Of a DNA stretch of 26,930 bases, positions 4,664 through 25,000 are shown one piece after another. A model generated the notes under the pieces. It made no database searches and was not told the origin of the DNA. It saw only the letters and a list, made by a program, of their open reading frames with translations. Each line of letters starts with the position of its first letter. Position 1 is the stretch's first letter. Both the position numbers and the translations under genes were made by a program. The stretch is from a virus. The DNA lies in the IMG/VR virus record IMGVR_UViG_3300005095_000028, positions 1 to 26,930 of that record, one strand, 5' to 3'.

Positions 4664-5262
4664 TGTTTGAAAAAGACATAGAAAAATATAAACAGCAAGC
4701 ACTACTGTTTATAACAGGAAAAGAGTTAAGTGAGGGTGAAATCGATATTGAAGTATCAAAGTTGTCTGAAGACTTAAAAACAATATTTGATAAGAAAATA
4801 AATGAGTATTATATAATTAATTTAAAATCTGAGATACATGGATTAATAGAAGATTTATATAGAGACAAATATTTAGAGATAGCGTCTGCATTAAGTGGTA
4901 GAAAAATAAACCAAGCTGGAATTGAAGCATACAAGGTTAAATATCAAAAGGCAGTACAGTATTTATCTGGTCAAATACAAATAATACCAAAAGTTATAGA
5001 GCTAGAAGCTTTAAGTAGAGGCATAGATCCAGCACAACTAATAAATATAATATATTACAAAGGCAAGGCATGGAACAACATTGTAGATACAGTACTGCTT
5101 GCATTTGAGACATCAAGAGCAAAGATACAAAACAAGACAAGCGAAGAAGAATTGCTTAATGCATATAACAAGTTGATAGAAATAAAAAAAACTTCATTTG
5201 CAAATCAAGAAATTTTAGCAAATATAGAAAATTATGTGTTAGAATTAGTAAAGGATTTATAA
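4663..5262 (+). CDS. Helical fibre-associated protein, unknown
   Basis: The ATG shares a base with the fibre stop and has an AAAGGAG site. The 199-aa product is predicted mostly alpha-helical and charged, with no hydrophobic segment (MFEKDIEKYKQQALLFITGK; IIPKVIELEALSRGIDPAQL). A gene directly behind a large fibre gene is often a tail-fibre assembly chaperone, but I see no signature that confirms this here. It is coupled by one base to the amidase that follows, so it is produced with the fibre and lysis proteins. Confidence 0.6.
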   Translation: MFEKDIEKYKQQALLFITGKELSEGEIDIEVSKLSEDLKTIFDKKINEYYIINLKSEIHGLIEDLYRDKYLEIASALSGRKINQAGIEAYKVKYQKAVQYLSGQIQIIPKVIELEALSRGIDPAQLINIIYYKGKAWNNIVDTVLLAFETSRAKIQNKTSEEELLNAYNKLIEIKKTSFANQEILANIENYVLELVKDL

Positions 5263-6137: not shown

Positions 6138-6260
6138 TGAGTATGTAAGCAACATTAGGAGATAATTTAATGTCGAATATTAGTGTAGCAATTAATCTTC
6201 ATATATGTCTCCTTGATGTTTTCTCCTATACAACATATTGCTACACATTATTCGATATAT
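6123..6260 (+). other. Folded intergenic segment with competing stems
   Basis: The gap after the holin gene is dense with inverted repeats. A perfect 9-bp repeat, AATGTTGCT (6123-6131) and AGCAACATT (6148-6156), spans the holin stop. A 17-bp stem pairs 6173-6179 with 6249-6255 and 6183-6192 (GTGTAGCAAT) with 6237-6246. Its 44-base loop contains two TCTCC copies. These can pair upstream: AACAT/GGAGA (6151-6162) with 6208-6220, or TAGGAGA (6156-6162) with TCTCCTA (6222-6228). The pairings interleave, so either a pseudoknot forms or the stems compete. No promoter was found, so it is probably part of the lysis/portal transcript. It could be a processing site, terminator or translational control element. 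Confidence 0.55.
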
Positions 6261-6262
6261 AA
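6170..6262 (+). CDS. Possible 30-aa leader peptide
   Basis: An ATG at 6170 follows TAGGAGA (6156-6162) at good spacing and opens a 30-codon frame ending at 6262, where the stop overlaps the next gene's AAAAGGAG. The peptide (MSNISVAINLHICLLDVFSY, then TTYCYTLFDI) is hydrophobic with two Cys. Its own coding sequence contains the TCTCC copies able to pair with its SD, so its translation could be self-limiting, or it could act as a leader for 6277-6588. It may also be a chance frame within the folded RNA. No homology is claimed. Confidence 0.3.
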   Translation: MSNISVAINLHICLLDVFSYTTYCYTLFDI

Positions 6263-6276
6263 AAGGAGTAAATATT

Positions 6277-11184: not shown

Positions 11185-12534
11185 ATGGCAGATTTTAACG
11201 GACAAAGATATAACCAAGGTGGAGAAAATCCAGCTACTTCGAGTGCAGGACCACAGTTAAATGATTTTCATTTTAGTAGATTCGCAGTACTAGAGGCTGC
11301 TTACAAAAAAGTGTTCTCACAAATGGTTGCAAGAAGAACTCAGCCGAAGCATTTCGGGGTCACAATCAAGAAGTATCACGAGTATCCAATTCTTCATGAT
11401 GCAAACATTAACGATCAAGGTATTGATGCAAATGGTGTAAAAATGACAGCTGGTAAATGGTACTCTTGGACAGATCCAACAGATCCGGCAACAAGACAAG
11501 AGCACGATACAAAAGCTGATGCATTAGCAAGAGCTGGACAAGTTCGTATTCAAAAAGGTGATGGTAACTTATATGGTTCAAGTAGAGACTTTAATGTTCA
11601 AAATGGTGCATTCCCAATTCTTGGTGAAGAAGGTGGAGCAGTAAACATTGTTGGTACATCAAGAGATATTATTGAGGCTAAAATTAAAAGATATGGTTTT
11701 GCGATCCAATATACTCGAGCAGCAATGGATCTTGATACAGACAGTTCTCTATTGGTTAAAGAGGTTAAAAAAGTTGGTGAAGCTTATGGTGATATTAGAG
11801 AAGCTCAAATCAGAAATGAATTGATCACACAAGGTATGCAAAATGCTACATATGGTGGTTCAGCTACTCAAATCAGTGAAGTTGATGAAACATCTCAATT
11901 AACATTCAGACTATTAAGAATGCTTAAGTCAAGTCTTGATACAGCTAGATGTCCTGTAGATACAAACATGATTACTGGTTCAACAAAGATTGCTACTAAG
12001 ACAATTAAAGCTGCAAGATATATCTATGTACCACAAGAAGTTGTACCTGCTTTAGAAGACTTAGAATACAATGGTAAACTACTTTGGGAAGATGTTGCAG
12101 AGTATGCTGATGGTGGTAATGTAACAGACGCTATGGCAGAGTCTAAATCAAATGTAGCACAAGGTGAAATTGGTAGAATTGGTTCATTCAGATTCATCGT
12201 TGTTGAAGGTATGCCTTACTGGCAAGGAATGGGTGCAGACGCAACTGACGGAGCAGATAATGATGGCGATGGTATTGAAGATGCAGCTGACAATATTCAT
12301 GTTACAGATGGTAATTATGATGTATTCCCATTACTAGTTGTTGGTTCTGAAGCAGCTGAAACATATTCACTACAAGGTGAAGTTGCTAAAGTTAAACATG
12401 GTGCTCCAAGAGTAATTCCTAATGTTGATAACCATGGAGATAGAGGATCAATTGCTATTGATTGGTGGTTCGGACTACTTGTGAATAAACCTGAGTGGAT
12501 AAGAACTGTTTTGGTGAGTTCGAAAATTGCCTGA
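11185..12534 (+). CDS. Major capsid protein, N4 gp56 family
   Basis: This 449-aa shell protein matches the N4-gp56 major capsid family (HK97 fold) in length and in recalled sequence. The N-terminal region reads FSRFAVLEAAYKKVFSQMVA, then VTIKKYHEYPILHDANINDQ, RYGFAIQYTRAAMDLDTDSS and YIYVPQEVVPALEDL. It ends FGLLVNKPEWIRTVLVSSKI plus A. At residues 358-370 it carries DNDGDGIEDAADN, an exact thrombospondin type-3-like calcium-binding loop. Only one of 29 Ile codons is ATA (W-I-R near the end), unlike the neighbours, which suggests selection for high expression. Its last bases are repeated downstream at 12659-12683. Confidence 0.92.
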   Translation: MADFNGQRYNQGGENPATSSAGPQLNDFHFSRFAVLEAAYKKVFSQMVARRTQPKHFGVTIKKYHEYPILHDANINDQGIDANGVKMTAGKWYSWTDPTDPATRQEHDTKADALARAGQVRIQKGDGNLYGSSRDFNVQNGAFPILGEEGGAVNIVGTSRDIIEAKIKRYGFAIQYTRAAMDLDTDSSLLVKEVKKVGEAYGDIREAQIRNELITQGMQNATYGGSATQISEVDETSQLTFRLLRMLKSSLDTARCPVDTNMITGSTKIATKTIKAARYIYVPQEVVPALEDLEYNGKLLWEDVAEYADGGNVTDAMAESKSNVAQGEIGRIGSFRFIVVEGMPYWQGMGADATDGADNDGDGIEDAADNIHVTDGNYDVFPLLVVGSEAAETYSLQGEVAKVKHGAPRVIPNVDNHGDRGSIAIDWWFGLLVNKPEWIRTVLVSSKIA

Positions 12535-12540
12535 TTTTAT

Positions 12541-12557
12541 TAGCATAGTATAGCATA
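12541..12557 (+). repeat. Two 7-bp direct repeats one helical turn apart
   Basis: TAGCATA lies at 12541-12547 and again at 12551-12557, exactly 10 bases apart, just after the capsid stop codon. Spacing of one turn is typical of tandem protein-binding half-sites, but no protein is implicated and this may be chance in AT-rich DNA. Confidence 0.3.
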
Positions 12558-12588
12558 ATTCGGAACCACTCTGGCTAGAAATTCTACA

Positions 12589-12608
12589 AGCCCCTAGAAA
12601 TAGGGGTT
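12589..12608 (+). terminator. Terminator hairpin after the capsid gene
   Basis: CCCCTA (12591-12596) and TAGGGG (12601-12606) form a perfect stem with a GAAA loop, extended outward by a G-T and an A-T pair. It lies 54 bases after the capsid stop and is followed by TTCTTC-type sequence, a weak U-tract. It is the most GC-rich stretch locally and would limit read-through from the highly expressed capsid gene. Confidence 0.65.
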
Positions 12609-12732
12609 CTTCAAACATTACAAATAATCATAATTTTATTAATGTTAATTATAGTAAATGGATAAGAACTGTTTTGGTAAGTTACTTAAGTGTTACCTAA
12701 GTAAACCATTAAGCGTTATCGAAGCCATATTT

Positions 12733-12741
12733 TGTTATAAT
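12733..12741 (+). promoter_or_regulatory. Extended -10 promoter for the KilA-N gene
   Basis: TGTTATAAT matches TGnTATAAT perfectly and lies about 27 bases before the ATG at 12769, with a T-rich stretch (ATATTTTG) in front and no clear -35. A start near 12748 would give a leader of about 20 bases carrying the AAAGGA site. The same motif precedes four other units in the window. Confidence 0.65.
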
Positions 12742-12768
12742 TGTATTATCTAAACAGAAAGGACATAT

Positions 12769-13845
12769 ATGACAAGTATAACTAAAGTATTTAATGGAGA
12801 GCCGTTACCAATAGAAGTAATCAATGATAGAGAATTTATGATTGATGTATCAGGTGTTATTAACGCATATAATAAGGAACATGGAACATACAAGAGATTT
12901 TCAAGATGGAAGGATGATGCTGTAGGATATATAGACGCTGTGCGAGCTGGCACAAACTTAAAGCAAGATAAATTGATATTTGAAAGTGGAAATGTAAAAA
13001 AGATACACAATAAATTACTTATTAGCTTTGCAAGATACTTATCTGATGAATTTGCAGTGTGGTGCGATAACACAATCTATGATATTCTTCTTGGACTAAA
13101 AGATGATCAAATAGAAAAACTTACAAATGAAAAACATGTATGTAATATATATTTTAAAAATGGAAAAAATTACACATCTTGTAGAGGACTGGTTCAGCAC
13201 ACAGGAATCGAGTATGATGAAAAAACAATTAAACAAAATTTGTTTACAATGGGATATATTGAGCCATACTATAAAAGAACAAAACACTGGAGAGTTACAG
13301 AAAGAGGTAAAAAAACTGGATTATTTGATCTCGATAATGCAGGAACAGTACTATACGATATTGACAGGATAGAAGATGTGCTAAAAACAAAAGTTATCGA
13401 AATGAAAAACAGTAATCATATATTAAGAAAAGTTCATGTTTATAATGGATTTACAGGAGAGTACCATGCAACATTTGATAGTCATAGACAAGCAGAACGA
13501 GAACTTGGAATAAGCAATGTAAGTCAAGTTGTTGATGGTAAAAAAGATCATGTAAGAGGAATGGTATTTATTGAATCAGAAGAACCGAAAGATAAGATTG
13601 ATCCACTACCAGAAGAAAAGCTAAAGAAAGTATTTAGAGATATAAATGTATTCAAAGATGGAGTATTCATTGAAAGATGCAAAACAGCTAAAGAAGCAGG
13701 TGAAATTGGTGGCAATGGAGCAACACAGGTAAGAAGACTACTTAAGAGTGGAAAACAAAACAATAAAGGATATTCATATGCATATGCAGAATTAGACTTT
13801 AAAAGAAGAAGACCAAAAGAATATAATAGCAGAAAACGATCTTAA
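12769..13845 (+). CDS. KilA-N protein with C-terminal NUMOD-like repeats
   Basis: The 358-aa product has a KilA-N-like DNA-binding domain at about 1-110 (NKLLISFARYLSDEFAVWCD is the conserved end). A winged-helix-like KilAC-type stretch lies at about 125-190 (YTSCRGLVQHTGIEYDEKTI; TKHWRVTERGKKTGLFDL). Two NUMOD1-like helix-turn-helix units follow: about 222-270 (FDSHRQAERELGISNVSQVV) and about 292-345 (KTAKEAGEIGGNGATQVRRL). NUMOD units normally sit in homing endonucleases, but no HNH or GIY-YIG catalytic motif is visible. Role: DNA-binding regulator, antirepressor-like protein, or the DNA-recognition part of a former homing element. It has its own extended -10 promoter and interrupts the virion cluster behind a duplicated capsid 3' end. 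It uses ATA freely, unlike its neighbours. Confidence 0.78.
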   Translation: MTSITKVFNGEPLPIEVINDREFMIDVSGVINAYNKEHGTYKRFSRWKDDAVGYIDAVRAGTNLKQDKLIFESGNVKKIHNKLLISFARYLSDEFAVWCDNTIYDILLGLKDDQIEKLTNEKHVCNIYFKNGKNYTSCRGLVQHTGIEYDEKTIKQNLFTMGYIEPYYKRTKHWRVTERGKKTGLFDLDNAGTVLYDIDRIEDVLKTKVIEMKNSNHILRKVHVYNGFTGEYHATFDSHRQAERELGISNVSQVVDGKKDHVRGMVFIESEEPKDKIDPLPEEKLKKVFRDINVFKDGVFIERCKTAKEAGEIGGNGATQVRRLLKSGKQNNKGYSYAYAELDFKRRRPKEYNSRKRS

Positions 13846-14089: not shown

Positions 14090-14140
14090 TTACTTCTTAC
14101 ATTTTTTACCTTTACATTTACGCTTCTTCTTACAAGCCAT
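14090..14140 (-). CDS. 16-aa Cys/Lys-rich peptide on the minus strand
   Basis: Reading the minus strand from 14140: ATG, then ACKKKRKCKGKKCKK, then TAA at 14090. Ten of 16 residues are Lys or Arg, and three are Cys (C3, C9, C14). The signals are unusually complete for so short a frame: AAAGGAG five bases upstream of ATG, an extended -10 promoter (TGTTATAAT, minus strand, 14171-14179) about 30 bases upstream, and a hairpin beyond the stop. It is the only minus-strand gene I can support. It could be a nucleic-acid or metal-binding peptide, an anti-host factor, or a DNA-condensing virion component. No family is known to me. Confidence 0.6.
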   Translation of the reverse strand: MACKKKRKCKGKKCKK

Positions 14141-14170
14141 GCAAACTCCTTTCATATAATGGAATACAAT

Positions 14171-14179
14171 ATTATAACA
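14171..14179 (-). promoter_or_regulatory. Extended -10 promoter for the micro-gene
   Basis: On the minus strand this reads TGTTATAAT, a perfect TGnTATAAT. A start near 14164 gives a leader of about 24 bases with the SD just before the ATG at 14140. It is divergent from the + strand promoter at 14196-14204, with only 16 bases between the two motifs. Confidence 0.6.
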
Positions 14180-14827: not shown

Positions 14828-16567
14828 ATGCCTATACCATATCATGGAGATACAGATTATACTATTGATGACCTGGACACAGGTGTAGATGATAGTAATG
14901 CGTTGGATTCGCTTAAAGACATTATAGACAAAATAGACCCAGACGGATATACTGTATCCATTGATGAATTGGTTGGAGATAAAACACTTGAAAATGGTGG
15001 AGCTTTAGGAGATATCCTAGAGCTTTTAAGGCTTCATATAAATGATATGAAGAACAAATCAGAATTAACATCACAGATGACTGGTCAAGTTTATTCTGCA
15101 ATGATTCAACAAGCTTTAACTAGTGCAATAGACTTTTTATATAGATCAAAAGATATGCAGCAACTAGATAAGCAGAGAAGTTTGGATCTAGTTAAGAAGA
15201 TGTTTGATATAGAATTATCTAAACTAAACAATGATGATGTTCAAACAAAGCGTAAGCTAGATATATTCAACTTGAAGTTTCTAAAACCATTAGAACATGA
15301 GCAAATGATTGAACAAATTGAAGGCTTACATGTTGAGCATAATATTAAGCAATATGAACTTGACGAGTTATTACCAATAGATAAAGACACAAAAGAATAC
15401 ACGCTCAATAATACAATGCCAGTTCAAAATGCATTGACAAACGAACAAATGTATAAAACAATAGCAGAAAAAGACTTAACAGATGCAGAACGATATATAA
15501 AAAGCTATTACAATGATGAAATGCAACCTATTGAAAAAGATATATTGAATAATCAGAAAAAAACTGGAGATATAGATGTAGAAATAAAAGATTATTATAA
15601 AGAGGATATGCAACCTATAGAGAAGTCTATATTGGATTATCAAAGAGATACAGCAGCAAAAGACCTTGATGCAAAAGAATATTATAATAGCTATATGCAA
15701 CCAATTGAAAAGGATATACTTGAAGAACAAGAACTTGTACAACATAAAGATAACGAGATCAAGCAATACTATATCGATAATATCCAACCTCTTGAAAAAG
15801 ACGAACTAGAAGAAAAAGAATTACTTGCAAATAAAGAAAATGCTGTAAAACAATACTATATAGATGAAATGCAACCTGTTGAAAAGCTCATGTTAGATGA
15901 TGAACATTGTATAAAGTCAACTGATTGTGCAATAAAAATGTATTACAAAGATAATATTCAACAAAAAGAATTTGAACTAACTGAAAAAGAAGTTGATCTA
16001 AAAACAGAACAAATTGCACTAGAACATCAGAAAACACTTATTGCAGAAAAAGACCTTGATCTAAAAATAAAAGAGCTTAGCTTAAGAGATAAAGAGATTG
16101 AGTTAACGGGAAAAGAGTTAGATTTAAAAGAATATGAATTTGATGAAATGATGCCACTAAGAAAAGAATTGCTAAATAATCAATCTCTATTAACAGGCAA
16201 ACAAGCATGTGTACAACAAGCAGAATGTGATATAAAAAATTATTATCACAATGATATTCAACCATATGAAAGAGATCTTGCACATGCAAAAGCATTTCAA
16301 GAGGAGGTAATGGCAGGTAATTATACAATAGAAGATTCAATGGCTAAAAAGAAAATAGACCTAATGAATACACAACAAATATTATATGAGAGACAAACAC
16401 TATCGTATGATGATCACAAGTGGCAAAAACTGCTTGAAACACAAACAAATTATCAATCAATGATTTATGCAGACTTCGTAGGTGTTCCAGAAGTATTAAC
16501 ATATGCATTAAACGATCATGTAAAAACAGTTTATAGTAAACTTAATCCTGACGATACAATATCATAG
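14828..16567 (+). CDS. Repeat-rich coiled virion protein
   Basis: This 579-aa protein is coupled to 14236-14826 with an AAGGAG site. Residues 1-220 are acidic and helical. Residues 224-397 consist of six contiguous 29-residue repeats built on 'IK.YY.DEMQPIEKDIL', for example IKSYYNDEMQPIEKDILNNQ and IKDYYKEDMQPIEKSILDYQ. Copies degenerate into a heptad coiled coil (LKIKELSLRDKEIELTGKEL), and one more YY..DIQP unit lies near 469. The C-terminus (from WQKLLETQTNYQSM) is a short non-repeat domain. Regular helical repeats of this kind suggest a rod, ruler or tube-lining element of the short tail or internal core. The position after capsid and gp55-like genes matches unassigned N4 tail/head genes. 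Confidence 0.7.
   Translation: MPIPYHGDTDYTIDDLDTGVDDSNALDSLKDIIDKIDPDGYTVSIDELVGDKTLENGGALGDILELLRLHINDMKNKSELTSQMTGQVYSAMIQQALTSAIDFLYRSKDMQQLDKQRSLDLVKKMFDIELSKLNNDDVQTKRKLDIFNLKFLKPLEHEQMIEQIEGLHVEHNIKQYELDELLPIDKDTKEYTLNNTMPVQNALTNEQMYKTIAEKDLTDAERYIKSYYNDEMQPIEKDILNNQKKTGDIDVEIKDYYKEDMQPIEKSILDYQRDTAAKDLDAKEYYNSYMQPIEKDILEEQELVQHKDNEIKQYYIDNIQPLEKDELEEKELLANKENAVKQYYIDEMQPVEKLMLDDEHCIKSTDCAIKMYYKDNIQQKEFELTEKEVDLKTEQIALEHQKTLIAEKDLDLKIKELSLRDKEIELTGKELDLKEYEFDEMMPLRKELLNNQSLLTGKQACVQQAECDIKNYYHNDIQPYERDLAHAKAFQEEVMAGNYTIEDSMAKKKIDLMNTQQILYERQTLSYDDHKWQKLLETQTNYQSMIYADFVGVPEVLTYALNDHVKTVYSKLNPDDTIS
15497..16018 (+). repeat. Six tandem 87-bp (29-aa) coding repeats
   Basis: Starts are near 15497, 15584, 15671, 15758, 15845 and 15932, each 87 bases (29 codons). 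Conserved positions are K2, Y4, Y5, M/I9, Q10, P11, E13 and K14, with P11, E13 and K14 lost or shifted in copy 6. DNA copies have drifted while protein positions hold, so the repeat is maintained by selection on the protein. Confidence 0.85.
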
Positions 16568-16576
16568 GACAAGACA

Positions 16577-19141
16577 ATGGGACTAGGTTGGTTTAGAGGA
16601 AAACGAAAACATGTTCAATCAATAACTTTTCAAGAAATGAAAAGTACACCATTTGCAGAATATGAATATGCTAGAAAACAAATAGCGTATTCTCTTCATG
16701 GCAATTGGGATAGATATGGCTATGAATTATGGAAGTATAAACATGGATATAAGCATAAAATAAGTGATAGTGTAGCAGTAGCACTAGATGCATTACCTCA
16801 ATCATTAGACATGAGCCTAGTATCATTTGAAGACATAAGAAACTGGATCTTAGATGGTCATGATGAATATGGCGATTTTCAGTCAATAGAAACATTAGAT
16901 GACAAAGAAAAACAAATACTTGGACACACAGATGAAGATCCACCAATAGAAGATATAATTCATGAATATATGAATAGAGAACATCCAGATATGGCTTATC
17001 TTAGATATGATGATGAAGAAGATTATCATTATTATTGCAATCAAAGTTCTGGTGATCCAGATGAGAATACGATTAGATGGAAAATAGTAGATCAATACTT
17101 TCAAAATGACAAATCAGAAGCAGTATTAGAATATCATGAATATGGTTATCATATTGAAACAACTGAAGATGATCCAGACACAGAAGAAGATGAATCATCA
17201 GAGGAATTGGTACAAGATGATAATGGAACTGGATCATTTACATTTGATTGTAGAGAGTACTTTTATGCTAAAGTATTTTATATAAATACATCAAATGAAT
17301 TGGATGTATATAAATGGATATATGTACCATATCATTTTTATACAGATGGATATACACAGGACACTGGATCAAATACATTAACATTTGAACCAGTATTTGA
17401 GATAAAAACAGAAAACAATGCAGATTCAGATTATATGCAAAATCAGAAGAAAATGCTTAGGCAATATGGTATAGAGCTAGAATCATTGCAAACACTAATA
17501 GATAACGGTAAAATAAGTGACTTAAGAGTTACACATGCTGTTGCACCAGACGATGGTGTAAAATCAGCAGCAATAGCTAAGTATTTATATCAATTCTTTT
17601 CACAAGTTACTGGTGATGATTTTTCTGAACAAGAACATCTTGGGAGCGAAACAAATAGAGAAATAAAATTTACGCTATCAAATGATCTTGAAGTGAAACA
17701 AAAATTTTATCTCGAAGAACAAGTAGTTGAGGAATCATTTCCTAGACCAAGTGATTTTTATGAATATAAGCTAAAGCTTGTTCAAAAGGTTACAAACAAG
17801 GATATGTATTATGATGAAGTTAAAGAGGCATACGATTATTGGATAGATGGTTCAGAAACAAATATTAAGCTAATGTATTCAGCACTAGAAATGAAACAGA
17901 TAGAGGAACCAGACAACAACTCATATCAAGAAGCATTCGCCAAACTTCCACCAAAGGATTGCTGGAAAGACACATATCTAAGTAAATATGAATATGTATT
18001 TTGTGAAAACGATATAGATAATATGAATGAAATAATGCATGATGTACTGTTTGATACATCAGATCCTAACAACGAGATACAACTATGGGAGATAGATTCA
18101 ACATATACAAAAAGAGCAAGAACAATACAAAATGATGAAGAGGAACGACTATATATAACAATAGAAAAAATTGATACGCCAGCGATGTTTTATAACGATG
18201 AGGACACAACAAGATATGTAGGGGCAGTAAAAACAGTAGTAATAAACCTATACTACAAAATAGATGACAATTCGTATAGGCATTTTAGATTCAGAAATGG
18301 AAGACTCGAATACAAAGTTGATGGACATACTGCAATTGTTAGACATGAAAAAATAAATGGTGAATTTAGAATCTTTATGTTAAATGGCTATATGAACAAT
18401 CTTAGGTTTAAAGAATACACTGCATTGCATGATAGATCATTGTGTGCACTTGTGTATGTTCATCAAGTTATAAAAATACATTGGTATCAAAGAGCTGGAT
18501 GGAGAATAGTTGTACAAATAGTAGTATTGATAGTAACATATTATACTGGTGGTGCAGGATCAGTATTTGAATTCCTAATAGATGTTGCAGTAAATATAGC
18601 AGTTGGATATGTTGCATCAAAAATTGCATCAATGATAAGTGGAAGATGGGGTGCTGTTGTTGGAGCAGTTATTGCTGTTGCATTATTAATTTTAACAAAA
18701 AAAGTTGATGTAGATAATACTAGTCAATTATGGCTTGCTACTGCAGATGAATATACAAAATTACAATCACAACAGTTGGCAGACGAAGTTGAGGCAATGC
18801 AAAAAGAATATGAAAAATATAAGAAAGAAATAATAAAAAAAACAAGAATGTTACAAGAATATATTGATGCACAAGATCAAAAAGGTTACTCCAAAGAAAC
18901 AATAATAACAAACATAGCAAACCAAGCGTACTGGGAAGGATATGATGGTCCAGAATTAACAAGTGAACTATTTGATAAACTAACAGAATCTGAATTATTT
19001 GGAGAAGAGATAAAACCTATAGACTACAATTTAGCTGAAACAGAGTATAATAAAATAGTTGAGATACCAAGAAATGTATATGAATTTGAAGATAAGATGA
19101 GAGAAATAACATACTTTGGATCAGACCAATTTAGAACATAA
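16577..19141 (+). CDS. Large virion protein with Gly-rich hydrophobic region
   Basis: The 854-aa product begins MGLGWFRGKRKHVQS with a weak AGGAC site nine bases after the previous stop. Residues 1-630 are a soluble, aromatic- and acid-rich region (GNWDRYGYELWKYKHGYKHK) without a known motif. Residues 642-705 are hydrophobic and Gly/Ala-rich (VVQIVVLIVTYYTGGAG; VAVNIAVGYVASKIASMISG; WGAVVGAVIAVALLILTKK), like membrane-active helices of podovirus ejection proteins. Residues about 720-770 form a coiled coil, and the end is ITYFGSDQFRT. The location between tail-like proteins and the giant protein suggests an internal virion or ejected protein. I see no enzyme domain. Confidence 0.65.
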   Translation: MGLGWFRGKRKHVQSITFQEMKSTPFAEYEYARKQIAYSLHGNWDRYGYELWKYKHGYKHKISDSVAVALDALPQSLDMSLVSFEDIRNWILDGHDEYGDFQSIETLDDKEKQILGHTDEDPPIEDIIHEYMNREHPDMAYLRYDDEEDYHYYCNQSSGDPDENTIRWKIVDQYFQNDKSEAVLEYHEYGYHIETTEDDPDTEEDESSEELVQDDNGTGSFTFDCREYFYAKVFYINTSNELDVYKWIYVPYHFYTDGYTQDTGSNTLTFEPVFEIKTENNADSDYMQNQKKMLRQYGIELESLQTLIDNGKISDLRVTHAVAPDDGVKSAAIAKYLYQFFSQVTGDDFSEQEHLGSETNREIKFTLSNDLEVKQKFYLEEQVVEESFPRPSDFYEYKLKLVQKVTNKDMYYDEVKEAYDYWIDGSETNIKLMYSALEMKQIEEPDNNSYQEAFAKLPPKDCWKDTYLSKYEYVFCENDIDNMNEIMHDVLFDTSDPNNEIQLWEIDSTYTKRARTIQNDEEERLYITIEKIDTPAMFYNDEDTTRYVGAVKTVVINLYYKIDDNSYRHFRFRNGRLEYKVDGHTAIVRHEKINGEFRIFMLNGYMNNLRFKEYTALHDRSLCALVYVHQVIKIHWYQRAGWRIVVQIVVLIVTYYTGGAGSVFEFLIDVAVNIAVGYVASKIASMISGRWGAVVGAVIAVALLILTKKVDVDNTSQLWLATADEYTKLQSQQLADEVEAMQKEYEKYKKEIIKKTRMLQEYIDAQDQKGYSKETIITNIANQAYWEGYDGPELTSELFDKLTESELFGEEIKPIDYNLAETEYNKIVEIPRNVYEFEDKMREITYFGSDQFRT

Positions 19142-19782: not shown

Positions 19783-21012
19783 ATGGCTAATTACAGAGTA
19801 CCAAGATTTGCACCTACAACACTACAGGCACCAAGATTACAAAGCTATGGAGATGCATTAGCACCTATAGCTAATTGGGCTGACAAGATGCAACAACTTG
19901 AAGAAAAGAGAAAAGATATAGAGTCTCAAAGAGATTTTCTAAGAGAAAGAGATACTGTTAAGATGCAACACGATTTTGATGTGGCAGCACAAAACAATGA
20001 CTATGCATTAGATAGAATGGATATCCAAAATGATTTTACTCGCGAACAAAATGAAGCGAATAGAGGATTAACTAGAGAACAAATGGCTCAAAATGATGAG
20101 CATTTTAACAAAAATTATAATCTTACAAAAACTAATGCAGATAGAACATATGGACTAAAAACTAGAGAGTTAAACCTAAAAGAGAGAACATACACAGATG
20201 CACAAAATGCTCAAAAAGCACAACAAAAACAAGCAGAAGCAGTTGGTTCAATTATTGGACAATATTTAGCACCTACAGCAGATCCAATGAGAAAGGGAGT
20301 AATAGGAAAAGAAGAAACATGGGATACAGCAGAAGTTGATAATGTTGCAAAAAAATATGAACCAAAATTAAAAACAATAGATACAAAAATGAATTCAATA
20401 CTTGACAGATTACCAGAAGAGATGCCTGATAGTATAAAACAGGAGCTAAATAAAGGCAATATTGAAGCAGTTGAAAAATGGGCTAAAAAGAACGATCCTA
20501 AGGATCCATTTAGATATGATTTTAGAAGTCTTCCAGCACTAGCAAAAGAATATAAAGAACTTAATACTCAAAGAGAAACAATACAAGGAAAATATGAAAC
20601 CGATCTTAAGAAAGCACCAAAAACAAAAAAAAATATTTATGGTAAAGTGTTTGATCCAGACAAGAAGCTTGTAGATATAGACAATAAAATAAGTGGATTA
20701 AATCAAGCATTAGCAATGACAAATAATAGAGCAACTCAAACACAATTATTGTCAGCTATAAATATATTAAAAAATGAATATAGTGATGTATATAATAAAT
20801 ACAAGAAGTCAATAGTAGAAAAACAAGCTAAAGGAATTGCAGATAGAGCTAAAGCATTTGTTGATAAGCAAGATAAAGTAACTGATGCTAGATTAGATAT
20901 TGCAAAAATGAAATATCAAGAAGCTCTTAAAAGTGGAGATCAGGGCAGAATAGCAGCAGCAGAAAAAGAGTATCAAGATTTGGTAAACAACTTATCTTAT
21001 GGAAAAAAATAA
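19783..21012 (+). CDS. Coiled-coil virion protein, probable inner core
   Basis: The 409-aa product starts MANYRVPRFAPTTLQAPRLQ, a short N-terminal motif often seen in podovirus internal proteins. Long helices follow, rich in Gln, Asn, Arg and Lys (WADKMQQLEEKRKDIESQRD; TREQNEANRGLTREQMAQND). The C-terminal third is again helical (AKAFVDKQDKVTDARLDIAK). No enzyme motif is seen. The neighbours (the small ejection-like protein before it, the giant protein two genes on) make a core or ejection role likely. A stop-adjacent hairpin (21012-21035) marks the end of the unit. Confidence 0.62.
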   Translation: MANYRVPRFAPTTLQAPRLQSYGDALAPIANWADKMQQLEEKRKDIESQRDFLRERDTVKMQHDFDVAAQNNDYALDRMDIQNDFTREQNEANRGLTREQMAQNDEHFNKNYNLTKTNADRTYGLKTRELNLKERTYTDAQNAQKAQQKQAEAVGSIIGQYLAPTADPMRKGVIGKEETWDTAEVDNVAKKYEPKLKTIDTKMNSILDRLPEEMPDSIKQELNKGNIEAVEKWAKKNDPKDPFRYDFRSLPALAKEYKELNTQRETIQGKYETDLKKAPKTKKNIYGKVFDPDKKLVDIDNKISGLNQALAMTNNRATQTQLLSAINILKNEYSDVYNKYKKSIVEKQAKGIADRAKAFVDKQDKVTDARLDIAKMKYQEALKSGDQGRIAAAEKEYQDLVNNLSYGKK

Positions 21013-21035
21013 GAACCAGTCATCACTCTGGTTCT
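21012..21035 (+). terminator. Hairpin ending the unit before the Rha-like gene
   Basis: AGAACCAG (21012-21019) and CTGGTTCT (21028-21035) pair perfectly over 8 bp with an 8-base loop, beginning on the last base of the stop codon at 21010-21012. There is no strong U-tract. The extended -10 at 21047 follows 12 bases after CTGGTTCTAA, so end of one unit and start of the next are directly juxtaposed. Confidence 0.6.
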
Positions 21036-21046
21036 AAGTTGTTATA

Positions 21047-21055
21047 TGTTATAAT
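21047..21055 (+). promoter_or_regulatory. Extended -10 promoter for the Rha-like gene
   Basis: TGTTATAAT is a perfect TGnTATAAT. Transcription would begin near 21061-21063, at the left end of the first long helix of the leader. This gives an untranslated leader of about 157 bases before the ATG at 21219, far longer than at the other promoters here (20-31 bases). Confidence 0.65.
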
Positions 21056-21059
21056 GCTA

Positions 21060-21211
21060 TATGTAACTTATTGAGGAGTGCCTTACTCTTAATCGCTGGA
21101 GTATTTTGACAGCTCTTGTCAAAGTATTCCTCAATGAGTTATATGCGATTAAAAGATTAAGGCACTTTAATCAGCACTCATTAAATTTTATTGTTAAGTC
21201 CTTAGAAAGGA
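21060..21211 (+). ncRNA. Structured 5' leader with mutually exclusive stems
   Basis: An 18-bp helix (three G-U) pairs 21060-21077 with 21128-21145. A second, about 16-bp, helix pairs 21078-21085 (GTGCCTTA) with 21158-21165 and 21089-21096 (TTAATCGC) with 21145-21152. A 10-bp hairpin (21102-21111 with 21117-21126, loop GCTCT) lies between. The two long helices interleave with no connecting loops, so both cannot form fully and the RNA should choose between folds. A further GCACTC (21174-21179) can also pair with 21076-21081. A small stem, TCCTT-AGA-AAGGA (21199-21211), covers the SD of the next gene. This looks like a regulatory leader; no known riboswitch class is recognised. Confidence 0.65.
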
Positions 21212-21218
21212 AAATATC

Positions 21219-21923
21219 ATGGATATTTTAGTAAAAGAAGAAAATGGATTAATCTACTCTACTGTGGATTTAATTGCAAAACATTGTGAAGTAAATACAA
21301 AAAGCACGCAGGAATTAATAGTTAAAAATATAGATATGTTTAAAAAACTATCTGATGGAATTAAAAAAGATATATTGTCAATGTCCGTTTCAAACGGAGA
21401 TTTAAAAATTCCTGAACTTAAATTGGTAATGTCAAAAACAGGCAAAACGATAGATTGGAAAAATACTAAACTATATCAACCACATATAGAAGCATTATTA
21501 ATGTTAATGAAAAATACAAAAATAGTAACACAGCATAAATTTGATTTAATTAGAGAGTTATTTGTATTAAGAGCAAAAACTTTAATGCAAGAATATCAAA
21601 ATAGAATGTTGCAGAAAGAAAGAGATATGCTATTGTTGGAGAAAGAGAATAAAAAGTTAGAGAAGAAAGTCAGAAAACTTGAACTTGATAAATTCATAGA
21701 TTGGGATGAAGATTATACAACAGCTTCAAGATATGTGAAAGAGCATCCAGAATTAAATATAACAGCATCAGAACTACTTGACTTATTATCAGATAAAGAG
21801 CTTATAGAGACTAAAATAGTTACAAGACAAGTTAGAGTTCCAGTTGAAGGAAAATCTATTAATGGAAAGAATGGAACACTTTTAGTAAAAGAATTTGATA
21901 TAGACAAACTATTCAAAATCTAA
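21219..21923 (+). CDS. Rha-family phage regulatory protein
   Basis: The 234-aa product has an N-terminal Rha-like domain at about 1-115. It includes IYSTVDLIAKHCEVNTKSTQ (the 'S..IA......V...I' helix-turn-helix start) and YQPHIEALLMLMKNTKIVTQ followed by HKFDLIRELFVLR, matching 'QA.LL....RNT..V..FK..LVK.F'. Residues about 122-156 are coiled coil (MLLLEKENKKLEKKVRKLEL). The C-terminal part (ASRYVKEHPELNITASELLD; VTRQVRVPVEGKSINGKNGT) resembles antirepressor/ANT-type C-termini. It probably acts as a regulator of phage or prophage gene expression. It is odd inside a virion cluster and comes with its own promoter, structured leader and flanking hairpins. Confidence 0.7.
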   Translation: MDILVKEENGLIYSTVDLIAKHCEVNTKSTQELIVKNIDMFKKLSDGIKKDILSMSVSNGDLKIPELKLVMSKTGKTIDWKNTKLYQPHIEALLMLMKNTKIVTQHKFDLIRELFVLRAKTLMQEYQNRMLQKERDMLLLEKENKKLEKKVRKLELDKFIDWDEDYTTASRYVKEHPELNITASELLDLLSDKELIETKIVTRQVRVPVEGKSINGKNGTLLVKEFDIDKLFKI

Positions 21924-21963: not shown

Positions 21964-21992
21964 AGAACCAGTCACCCCCTCCATCTGGTTCT
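21964..21992 (+). terminator. Second GAACCAG hairpin, before the giant gene
   Basis: AGAACCAG (21964-21971) pairs perfectly with CTGGTTCT (21985-21992), with a C-rich 13-base loop. As at 21012-21035, CTGGTTCTAA is followed after exactly 12 bases by TATAATG. This repeated hairpin-promoter cassette separates the Rha-like gene from the giant gene. Confidence 0.55.
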
Positions 21993-22003
21993 AAATCCCT
22001 TAA

Positions 22004-22012
22004 TGATATAAT
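22004..22012 (+). promoter_or_regulatory. Extended -10 promoter for the giant virion gene
   Basis: TGATATAAT matches TGnTATAAT. A start near 22019 leaves a leader of about 27 bases with AAAGGGAT before the ATG at 22046. The promoter lets the giant gene be expressed independently of the upstream Rha-like unit. Confidence 0.6.
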
Positions 22013-22045: not shown

Positions 22046-25000
22046 ATGCCTAACTATGACAAACAATATCAACAAGCAAAAGATGCATTAAGTAATGAAA
22101 TGAATGATTTTAATAGTCCTGAAGCAATTCAAAGAAGATATGAAGAGTGGAAAAGAGATTATGAGGCAGCACAAGAAAGTGCAAGCCAGGAAATGTATAA
22201 CACAGATCTCGCATTGGCTAGATCAAGGAGAGATGCTCAAAGTCAAGAAGAAATAGATGCTAGAAAATCTGATTTGATATTCGATAATGATGGAACGCTT
22301 AGGAATGATTCAGATATTACGAAAGCATTGAAATCTGCATGGAACAGTACAGTTGGAAAACTTGGTGAGCCATTAAAGTTTGATATAATGGACAATGGTA
22401 AAAGAGTTGACTCAGGAAATAAAGCATATGATTTATCTGGAAACTCATTCAGTAAGATGTCAGATGAAGAGTTTCTTAACTACTATAAAAGTGCTCCTGA
22501 TGATCCAGATGCTCAAAGTATATTATATTCATATAGAAAATATGATGGTAAAGATAAAGATGGAAAAGATAAATATTTATATAAGGTAGGAAAAACAAAT
22601 GCATCAGCATGGGATAGAGTAAAGGGAAACTTTGCACGACAAGGTATAGAACTATTGTCAGAAAAGAGATTTGGTGGTGCAGATGAATATGAAAGAGAAT
22701 TCCAAAAAAGATTTATAAAAGATAGAGCAATAGATAAAGGTAATAACTACAAATCAGGATTCAATTTCAATGATGGATATACTGAGTTTTATGATAGAGA
22801 CATATTAGGTGCTGATAATGGTCAAACAACTAGAGACACTAGACAAAATATGCTTGAATCACAAGTAAAAGGTGATGAATACTATAAGAAACACGCTGGT
22901 TCAAATAATTGGTACATGGGAGATAAACACTCATTTAGAAGAGATCTTGCATCAGGTACAACACAATTAGCAGGTGGACTAGTTGATCTATTGTCAACAG
23001 GGCTTGGATACGCATTAGAAAAGGCAGGAGTAGAAAACGACTTAGAAAACAATATAGGTGACTATATGCAAGAAAATGCTGCCAAATGGGCTGGCAAAGA
23101 CGCACAGTATGAAAAAGAAGCAATGAGAGAGTCTATTGCAGCATTTAGAAGAGGAGATTATTTTGATGCTGTATTTAATGATCTAGGTGCAAAATCAGGA
23201 GTTCTTGTAGAGTCATTACCGGAAATGGGTTTAATGTTTGCAGAAGGACCAGCAGGTTGGGCAGCAGCAAGTAAAAAAGTAGCTAATGCAGCTAAAGTGC
23301 TATCAAAAGCAAGAGAAGAACTTGCATGGATCAAAGGTGCAAAAGGTGTAGCAAATACACTTGAAGGAGCAAAAAAAGCTCAAAAGCTAGAGAGTCAAAT
23401 AGTTAGTGCTACAAGAGTTATAGAAAAGGCAGGTCATAGTGTAGATGATATAGAAAAGCTTGTTAACCCATCAGTGTTTGCGAAACTTGGAAGCAAACTA
23501 TCTAAGGATGCAGGATTTAATGCTGTATGGGCTAAAAATACAAATGAAATAGTTGAACAAAGAAAGCAAGAAAAAGGTGGACAAGATGTTTCACTTGGCG
23601 AAGTGCTTGGAATAGCAGCATCACAATACTTACTAACAGGTTTAGATAAGTGGACATTTGGTGATATAGCAAAATCTCCAGCAATACTTAACTCGTTAAA
23701 ATCTGCATACAAAACAGCTAAAGATGCAGGAATGGGTGGTGCAGTAATATCAGCACTAGCAAAAGGTGTAACAGAGGTTGGAACATCAGCATTAGAAGAA
23801 GGATTTCAAGAAGCTGCTCAAACAGCAGGTGAAATACTTGGTGCAAAATTAGATGTAAATGGTCAAAATATATATGATGTATTAGGTGATGAAAAGAACC
23901 AGAATGAAATAATTGGTGCATCAATGATGGGTGCTGGTGCTGGTGGACACATGTCACTTGTATCACAAGGAGTAAGAGGAACTTTTAATGCTGCAAAAAG
24001 TGGTATAGAAGCATTCAAGGATCACAGAGATGACAGAAGAGCTAACAACAGAGATGAAAATGGAAAACTATATTCTTCTCCAAATGTATTAAGAAAGAAG
24101 ATAGTTAATACTCTAAATGATCCATCTAAACCACTTGAAGAAAGAGTAGCACTTGGTCATGAAGCAATAGACGATTTACTAACATATGACGATATAAAAC
24201 CTGATGAATATGGAATGAAAGACATGTTTATAGCAGGTATAGATGGAGTGTTTAGCAGTACAATACCAAAAGAACATAAGGAACAAATGTTTAATAAGCT
24301 TATGTCAAGTGACAAGTTATCTGAACCAGACAAGAAGTATCTTGCAGATAATGTGATTACCTTAGCTATGGAAGCACTAGATGATGAAATACAAACTGCT
24401 TCATTTGGTTCAAAAACAGTGGAAACAAATGGAGATGATGTTTTTGGAGACGAAAGAGATTCATTTAACGATGGTGGAAACCCACCACCACCAATAAATC
24501 CAGTAAAAGGTCAACTTGGTCATATAATAGATTCACTTAGTTCAACTAAAAAAGCATTATTAGCACAAGGTCTTGATACATCAAAGGTAGATACTGCTTT
24601 AAAGGTAATAGAGTCATACAATAATGCAGATACTTTTGAAAAAGCAATAGGTGATGTATCAGCAGAAGTTGAAACTATAGGGTTTGTATCTCCTGATGCA
24701 AAAACAGTTAAACCATCAATAGGTGCATATGAAGCAGGACTAGAAAGAAGTGTATTGAGTGGTTCTGGTGGATTCACAGGTTTGACAAATTTTAGTAGCT
24801 TTGTAAAATCAAGAATTGGTAAAGAGATAGATTATAAGATGAAAGGTCAACAAAATTTTGTTGCTCAAACAAATGCAGAAAATAAAAGAATGCTAGACCT
24901 TACAACACATATACTGTCAACAAACGGTGAAAAACTAGATCAAGAAGTTAAAAAGGAATTAGAATCAATACAAAAAGGTTTAACAAGTAAAATTGTTGAC

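Follow-up and report, generated by a model that had tools for sequence, protein, structure and literature searches.

In the hok mRNA and in the leader of the MS2 maturation gene, an early hairpin is replaced by a later and more stable fold, and the output of this exchange is the access of ribosomes to the gene. To our knowledge, phage leaders that switch folds have been described for just a few temperate phages. One such case is the Gifsy-1 IsrK leader, which has two folds of near-equal energy and an upstream frame, orf45, coupled to the antirepressor anrP (PMC4825925). As for the 5' end of the transcript, it is established that mRNA decay depends on its being unpaired, and RppH of B. subtilis requires at least two unpaired 5' nucleotides (PMC3997798).

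The window analysed here (the whole stretch of DNA, 26,930 bases) is a virus record, and its SU10/N4-type portal, N4-gp56 major capsid protein and N4 gene order place it among the N4-like phages (Schitoviridae relatives). In this window, the gene of a 234-aa protein is preceded by a real plus-strand leader RNA with two competing folds, which is probably conserved; the features are collected in Table 1. The gene sits between gene 19783-21012, in the place of N4 gp51, and a giant gene (22046 to the end of the window), which by its position would correspond to the virion RNA polymerase gene of N4. The genes in these two places are adjacent, 9–100 bases apart, in N4, Pollock, BUCT194, PT15-A5 and in the N4-like record G001 described below, which suggests that the 234-aa gene and its leader were inserted as a cassette. 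This putative cassette is flanked by two copies of the hairpin AGAACCAG...CTGGTTCT, which is present in many phages and which we read as a terminator, each copy being followed by a TGNTATAAT promoter. The window holds seven copies of TGNTATAAT (3.6 expected), and four of the seven lie in intergenic gaps, which make up 3.8% of the window. The promoter motif of the leader also precedes genes 12769 and 22046, where the predicted leaders are only about 21 and 27 nt long, respectively, while that of the 234-aa gene would reach 158 nt; these predicted starts agree with the original prediction in giving a long leader to this gene alone, and in placing the start at the left end of the first long helix.

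Table 1. Positions of the leader features, their surroundings and related hairpins (window coordinates unless L107 or L108 is named).
Feature	Position	Strand	Remark
Probable terminator hairpin AGAACCAG-N8-CTGGTTCT	21012-21035	+	Immediately at the stop codon that ends the preceding gene
Extended -10 promoter TGTTATAAT	21047-21055	+	Predicted start 21061-21063
Helix A, 5' strand	21060-21081	+	Begins at the predicted transcript start
Helix A, 3' strand	21124-21145	+	
Helix B, 5' strand	21077-21096	+	Shared segment AGUGCC (21077-21082) pairs in A or in B
Helix B, 3' strand	21145-21166	+	
Small hairpin inside state A	21084-21103	+	Loop complementary to 21145-21151, part of helix B
Central hairpin	21098-21130	+	7 bp (state A) or 14 bp (state B)
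Tiny reading frame MSYMRLKD	21134-21160	+	Inner AUG at 21143; without a good SD; role speculative
Helix C	21147-21172	+	GAUUAAA (21147-21153) pairs with UUUAAUC (21166-21172)
Third strand GCACUC	21174-21179	+	Complementary to 21076-21081
5-bp stem over the SD	21199-21203/21207-21211	+	SD AAGGA at 21207-21211; same in both states
234-aa protein gene	21219-21923	+	Long central helix; without significant family match
Second hairpin copy (21964-21992) and second promoter TGATATAAT (22004-22012)	21964-22012	+	Behind the putative cassette, before the giant gene
G001 long hairpins	L107 3148-3227, 8085-8166; L108 4727-4836, 4928-5026		Directly before genes

Several further features of the window were recorded. 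On the minus strand, 14090-14179 is a complete tiny transcription unit with a TGTTATAAT promoter, AAAGGAG, a 16-aa Lys/Cys peptide (MACKKKRKCKGKKCKK) and then a hairpin (TGAACCAG/CTGGTTCA). On the plus strand, a 30-codon frame with a long internal inverted repeat lies at 6172-6264, before gene 6278; in the relative L002 (about 5160-5250) the sequence differs, while an inverted repeat and the anti-SD-like TGTCTCCTTG are kept, and this may be a second structured control element. At 12480-13845, the last 40 or so bases of the capsid gene are repeated behind it (12643-12683), and next comes a KilA-N/NUMOD gene; L003 has a KilA-type gene here and L002 a different, HNH-like one. We regard this region as a mobile-gene hot spot. 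An inverted repeat (TTACTTAAGTGTTACCTAAGTAA, 12680-12741) immediately before the KilA-N gene's promoter, with a close copy in the same place in L003, is a candidate operator. Inside gene 14828-16567, imperfect repeats with 87-base (29-codon) spacing occupy 15498-16272.

No RNA fold in the 26.9-kb window is more stable than that of the leader (21060-21172). Among 1,340 windows (160 nt each, both strands), those at 21001 and 21041 on the plus strand come first in stability, and the top 160-nt stretch reaches -52.1 kcal/mol (z -6.6), while the leader stretch cited in the original prediction has a z of -4.7. Two long helices were found where they had been proposed. Helix A consists of 22 uninterrupted pairs, five of which are G-U, and the 18 bp originally described are its outer part; helix B has 19 Watson-Crick pairs with one mismatch and one 2-nt bulge (21077-21085/21158-21166, 21087-21090/21153-21156 and 21091-21096/21145-21150). 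The stem score of helix A (20.0) is the best of the whole window, with a runner-up of 15.0, and it was reached in none of 137 dinucleotide shuffles of the whole window (maximum 19.6); likewise, none of the 137 shuffles had three such stems inside 110 nt. The score of helix A drops to 12.2 on the minus strand because of its G-U pairs. Helix B has a score of 12.2; helix A is far beyond chance and helix B much less so.

The hairpin between the helices had been described as constant, with 10 bp, and in our folds its size varies: in state A it is formed by 21105-21111/21117-21123 and abuts helix A, while in state B it extends to 21098-21111/21117-21130. The small hairpin of state A could serve, through its loop, as the starting point of an exchange from A to B. 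Helix C is compatible with A and incompatible with B. The third strand and the small stem over the SD are both present as had been claimed.

Helices A and B cross (pseudoknot topology), and since 21077-21081 and 21145 belong to both, their full forms are mutually exclusive, in agreement with the original prediction; a partial A/B pseudoknot is possible. For a transcript starting at 21061, the best fold energy is -46.3 kcal/mol with A and -45.4 kcal/mol with B, values which leave out pseudoknots, Mg2+ and proteins, and thus the leader has two mutually exclusive folds of similar energy and is bistable in silico, as proposed. The A/B share depends on the start site, as the predicted share of A in the full leader goes from 0.59 (start at 21061) to 0.01 (start at 21064). 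In folding of the growing chain, A forms first and is present until 21160, B, which is formable only once 21165 has been transcribed, appears at 21170, and a mixture is found beyond.

The consequences of the exchange differ from those first supposed. Control through masking of the SD did not find support, since the SD is on average unpaired with a probability of 0.37 in state A and 0.35 in B, and the predicted access of the start codon region is the same in both. There is no U run behind helix A, B or C, and for this reason the reading as an intrinsic terminator was dropped. The two folds therefore do not differ in predicted access to the SD or the start codon, nor in a terminator; the exchange would alter only the pairing of the 5' end, which is paired in A and freed in B, and that of the tiny upstream AUGs (21134 and 21143), in whose region the unpaired probability rises from 0.01 in state A to 0.82 in state B. 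The equal SD access and the lack of a U run argue against SD masking and intrinsic termination; what is left is the chemistry of the 5' end, a processing step, or the tiny frame. A 5' leader with two competing folds also brings to mind a ligand-binding riboswitch, but this is a most improbable reading, because an expression platform is absent (no terminator, SD unchanged), the duplexes are long and simple without a compact conserved core, and no Rfam family, riboswitches and ribozymes among them, matched above the gathering threshold. The original prediction had likewise matched the leader to no known riboswitch or ribozyme class; the best weak matches in the Rfam search were eukaryotic microRNA and snoRNA models (E of at least 1.5).

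A sequence-blind scan for pairs of long crossing stems in approximately 2.3 Mb of viral DNA gave two outstanding matches, the leader of the window (32.2) and positions 18396-18498 of L108 (34.6), while the best scores in controls were 23.6 (an equal amount of shuffled DNA) and 24.2 (parts of four Schitoviridae genomes). A third match (L111, G002) falls in low-complexity DNA rich in repeats and was left uncounted. L108 belongs to G001, a 74.6-kb N4-like record whose capsid, portal and giant-gene homologues are 27–51% identical to those of the window. Its element precedes the gene of a 135-aa protein similar to phage replication protein O (weak match to PF04492, E 0.0024, below the family cut-off) and a DNA primase; the downstream genes of the two elements thus differ, and the G001 promoter is poor. 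Beside the G001 element and the O-like gene, 22-bp tandem repeats (iteron-like) occupy L108 18262-18335, possibly the replication origin of G001.

Both elements have the same order of parts, i.e., the 5' strand of A, the overlapping 5' strand of B, the central hairpin abutting the 3' strand of A, that strand itself, and the 3' strand of B. They also share three motifs in the same order: GUAACUU at the start of A, GAUUAAA after the 3' strand of A and UUUAAUC after the 3' strand of B. Their similarity was matched by one of 2000 shuffles and by two of 4000 real windows. The pairs were compared in a hand alignment of the two elements, in which A and B are offset in register by two bases. In helix A, nine pairs are identical, five changed on one side and four on both; in helix B, five are identical and four changed on both sides; and in helix C all seven are identical. 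No pair is broken, which is partly built in, because both elements were selected as strong stems; the same selection applies to the eight two-sided changes of helices A and B together. The original prediction had suggested looking for compensatory changes, and relative to this independently found element such differences are present in the hand alignment. Due to the shared motifs, the central hairpin and the compensatory pair changes, the leader and the G001 element probably form a conserved family of plus-strand leader RNAs with two members known. Neither the exact helix-B pattern nor the motif order revealed further members, and five helix-B matches were unrelated. The first helix to form in G001 is again A, after which B prevails by about 11 kcal/mol (-37.2 to -48.4), so the even A/B balance of the window is not conserved, and a one-way timed change would take its place there.

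The position of the G001 element next to tandem repeats and a replication initiator gene would suit a site acting at the level of DNA (an origin structure, or a site of recombination or packaging) and not as RNA. We consider this very unlikely, as the copy in the window lies in the late structural region without such repeats, and as strand asymmetry is evident both in the scores of helix A and in the 11 G-U and zero A-C pairs summed over both elements.

G001 has more long perfect hairpins before genes (arms of 20 or more bp, loops of 40–68 nt; Table 1). In phage N4, two very strong stems are found at L133 32702-33045, in the gp47-gp48 gap without annotated genes.

We propose that the plus-strand 5' leader RNA is a conformational switch which sets the life or processing of the mRNA and thus the output of the 234-aa protein, a reading that we hold with evenly divided confidence. 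Transcription would start at about 21061-21063, and once 21145 has been made, helix A would close and seal the 5' end, with helix C possibly forming beside it (state A). After 21165 has been made, helix B could displace A by strand exchange via the shared AGUGCC, and in this state B the 5' end and the tiny upstream start codon would be single-stranded. The choice between A and B, or its timing, would then most likely determine mRNA life or processing, either by protection of the 5' end or by a cut in one of the two long duplexes, perhaps assisted by a protein, a further RNA or a ribosome that sits on the tiny frame; through mRNA life or processing, the output of the 234-aa protein would follow. 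In silico, the proposal stands on the helices, their competition, the strand and, in a related phage, a second element built alike. From the fact that the 5' end and the tiny start codon change and the SD does not, we infer control of mRNA life or processing; since neither the SD nor termination shows a predicted change, the output is a guess, and the start site and the kinetics in the cell are likewise inferred.

The main rival of the switch is a plain mRNA stabiliser or RNase III site, in which the 5' duplex would protect the mRNA or be cut, helix B being a by-product that plays no part in switching; we regard it as possible, if rather unlikely. It would explain why helix A alone is far beyond chance and helix B much less so, and it has parallels in the long G001 hairpins before genes, which have no crossing partner, and in long intergenic stems of other N4-like genomes. 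Against it stand the recurrence of the crossing pair in two phages with similar motifs, the paired changes in helix B as well, and the fact that B is the stronger helix in G001.

The downstream gene had been called a Rha-type regulator, and this identity was not borne out: Rha PF09669 (pRha domain) did not match the 234-aa protein even at E 10, hhalign against a profile of 13 Rha/antirepressor proteins gave a probability of 0.2%, and in an hmmsearch with the Rha/antirepressor profile it ranked no better than unrelated structural proteins of the window. The sole hint of a regulator is phrog_2657, a PHROG transcription-regulator family (12.2 bits, E 0.16, truncated query). No relatives of the protein were found in IMG/VR, phages, plasmids or GTDB genomes, and the AlphaFold model of the protein alone is poor (pLDDT 51). 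For three other proteins of the window (16577-19141, 19783-21009 and 22046-24700), peptide patterns gave no IMG/VR relative, and an alignment-based scan found G001 only. As the Rha identity was unsupported in four tests, the idea of autoregulation has no footing yet.

The same crossing-helix design is thus found in two distantly related N4-like phages before different genes, with altered sequence and preserved pairing. Tentatively, and with less confidence than for the switch itself, this may be a new N4-related leader family, in which a nascent helix seals the 5' end and later gives way to another long helix; replication or regulator genes would be timed through the state of the 5' end, perhaps with the tiny reading frame, without any masking of the ribosome site. 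If true, N4-like phages own an undescribed layer of RNA timing whose output is mRNA decay or processing instead of ribosome access. The leader is small and suited to quick testing in reporter constructs.

Among known systems, the HDV-like ribozyme and the phi29 pRNA-like RNA were considered for their similar topology or layout and rejected, having the wrong helix lengths and no Rfam match. The nearest working relatives are the Gifsy-1 IsrK and P4 CI leaders, with membership in either unsupported. Like IsrK/orf45/anrP, this is a phage leader with two folds of similar energy and a small upstream frame; IsrK differs in possessing a terminator, a short RNA of its own and a genuine upstream gene (orf45) coupled to an antirepressor, none of which was seen here, and its downstream gene is a regulator, whereas the antirepressor profile tests of the 234-aa protein were negative. 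With the P4 CI leader (seqA/CI/seqC; PMC4825925) and P1 c4 (RF01695) it shares a segment with alternative upstream and downstream partners, and P4 and G001 both have replication genes downstream; unlike in those systems, both partners lie here within two long intramolecular helices, and no processing or termination site was seen. The leader might still belong to this kind, if its first 85 or so nucleotides were set free as a small RNA which, by pairing in trans or in cis with the same leader, controlled termination or translation. The layout (promoter, structured RNA, gene) would fit, as would the complementarity of AGUGCC and the UAAUCGCU loop to 21145-21166 and of GAGUGC to 21174-21179, and IsrK itself involves two folds of near-equal energy, an upstream frame and an antirepressor (PMC4825925). 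This seems improbable, however, as there is no Rfam match (c4 antisense RNA RF01695 was not among the matches of the leader even at E 10), no terminator or processing site was seen after helix A, the downstream protein fails the antirepressor profile tests and the SD lies outside the target.

Compared with the hok and MS2 leaders, the preferred reading as a switch has in common a first helix that gives way to a later, more stable fold, most clearly in G001, and differs in that access to the SD is unchanged here. As in ompA-type stem-loops and T7-type RNase III sites, a long duplex stands at the very 5' end of the transcript; unlike in those single stable stems, a second helix here competes with the protective one.
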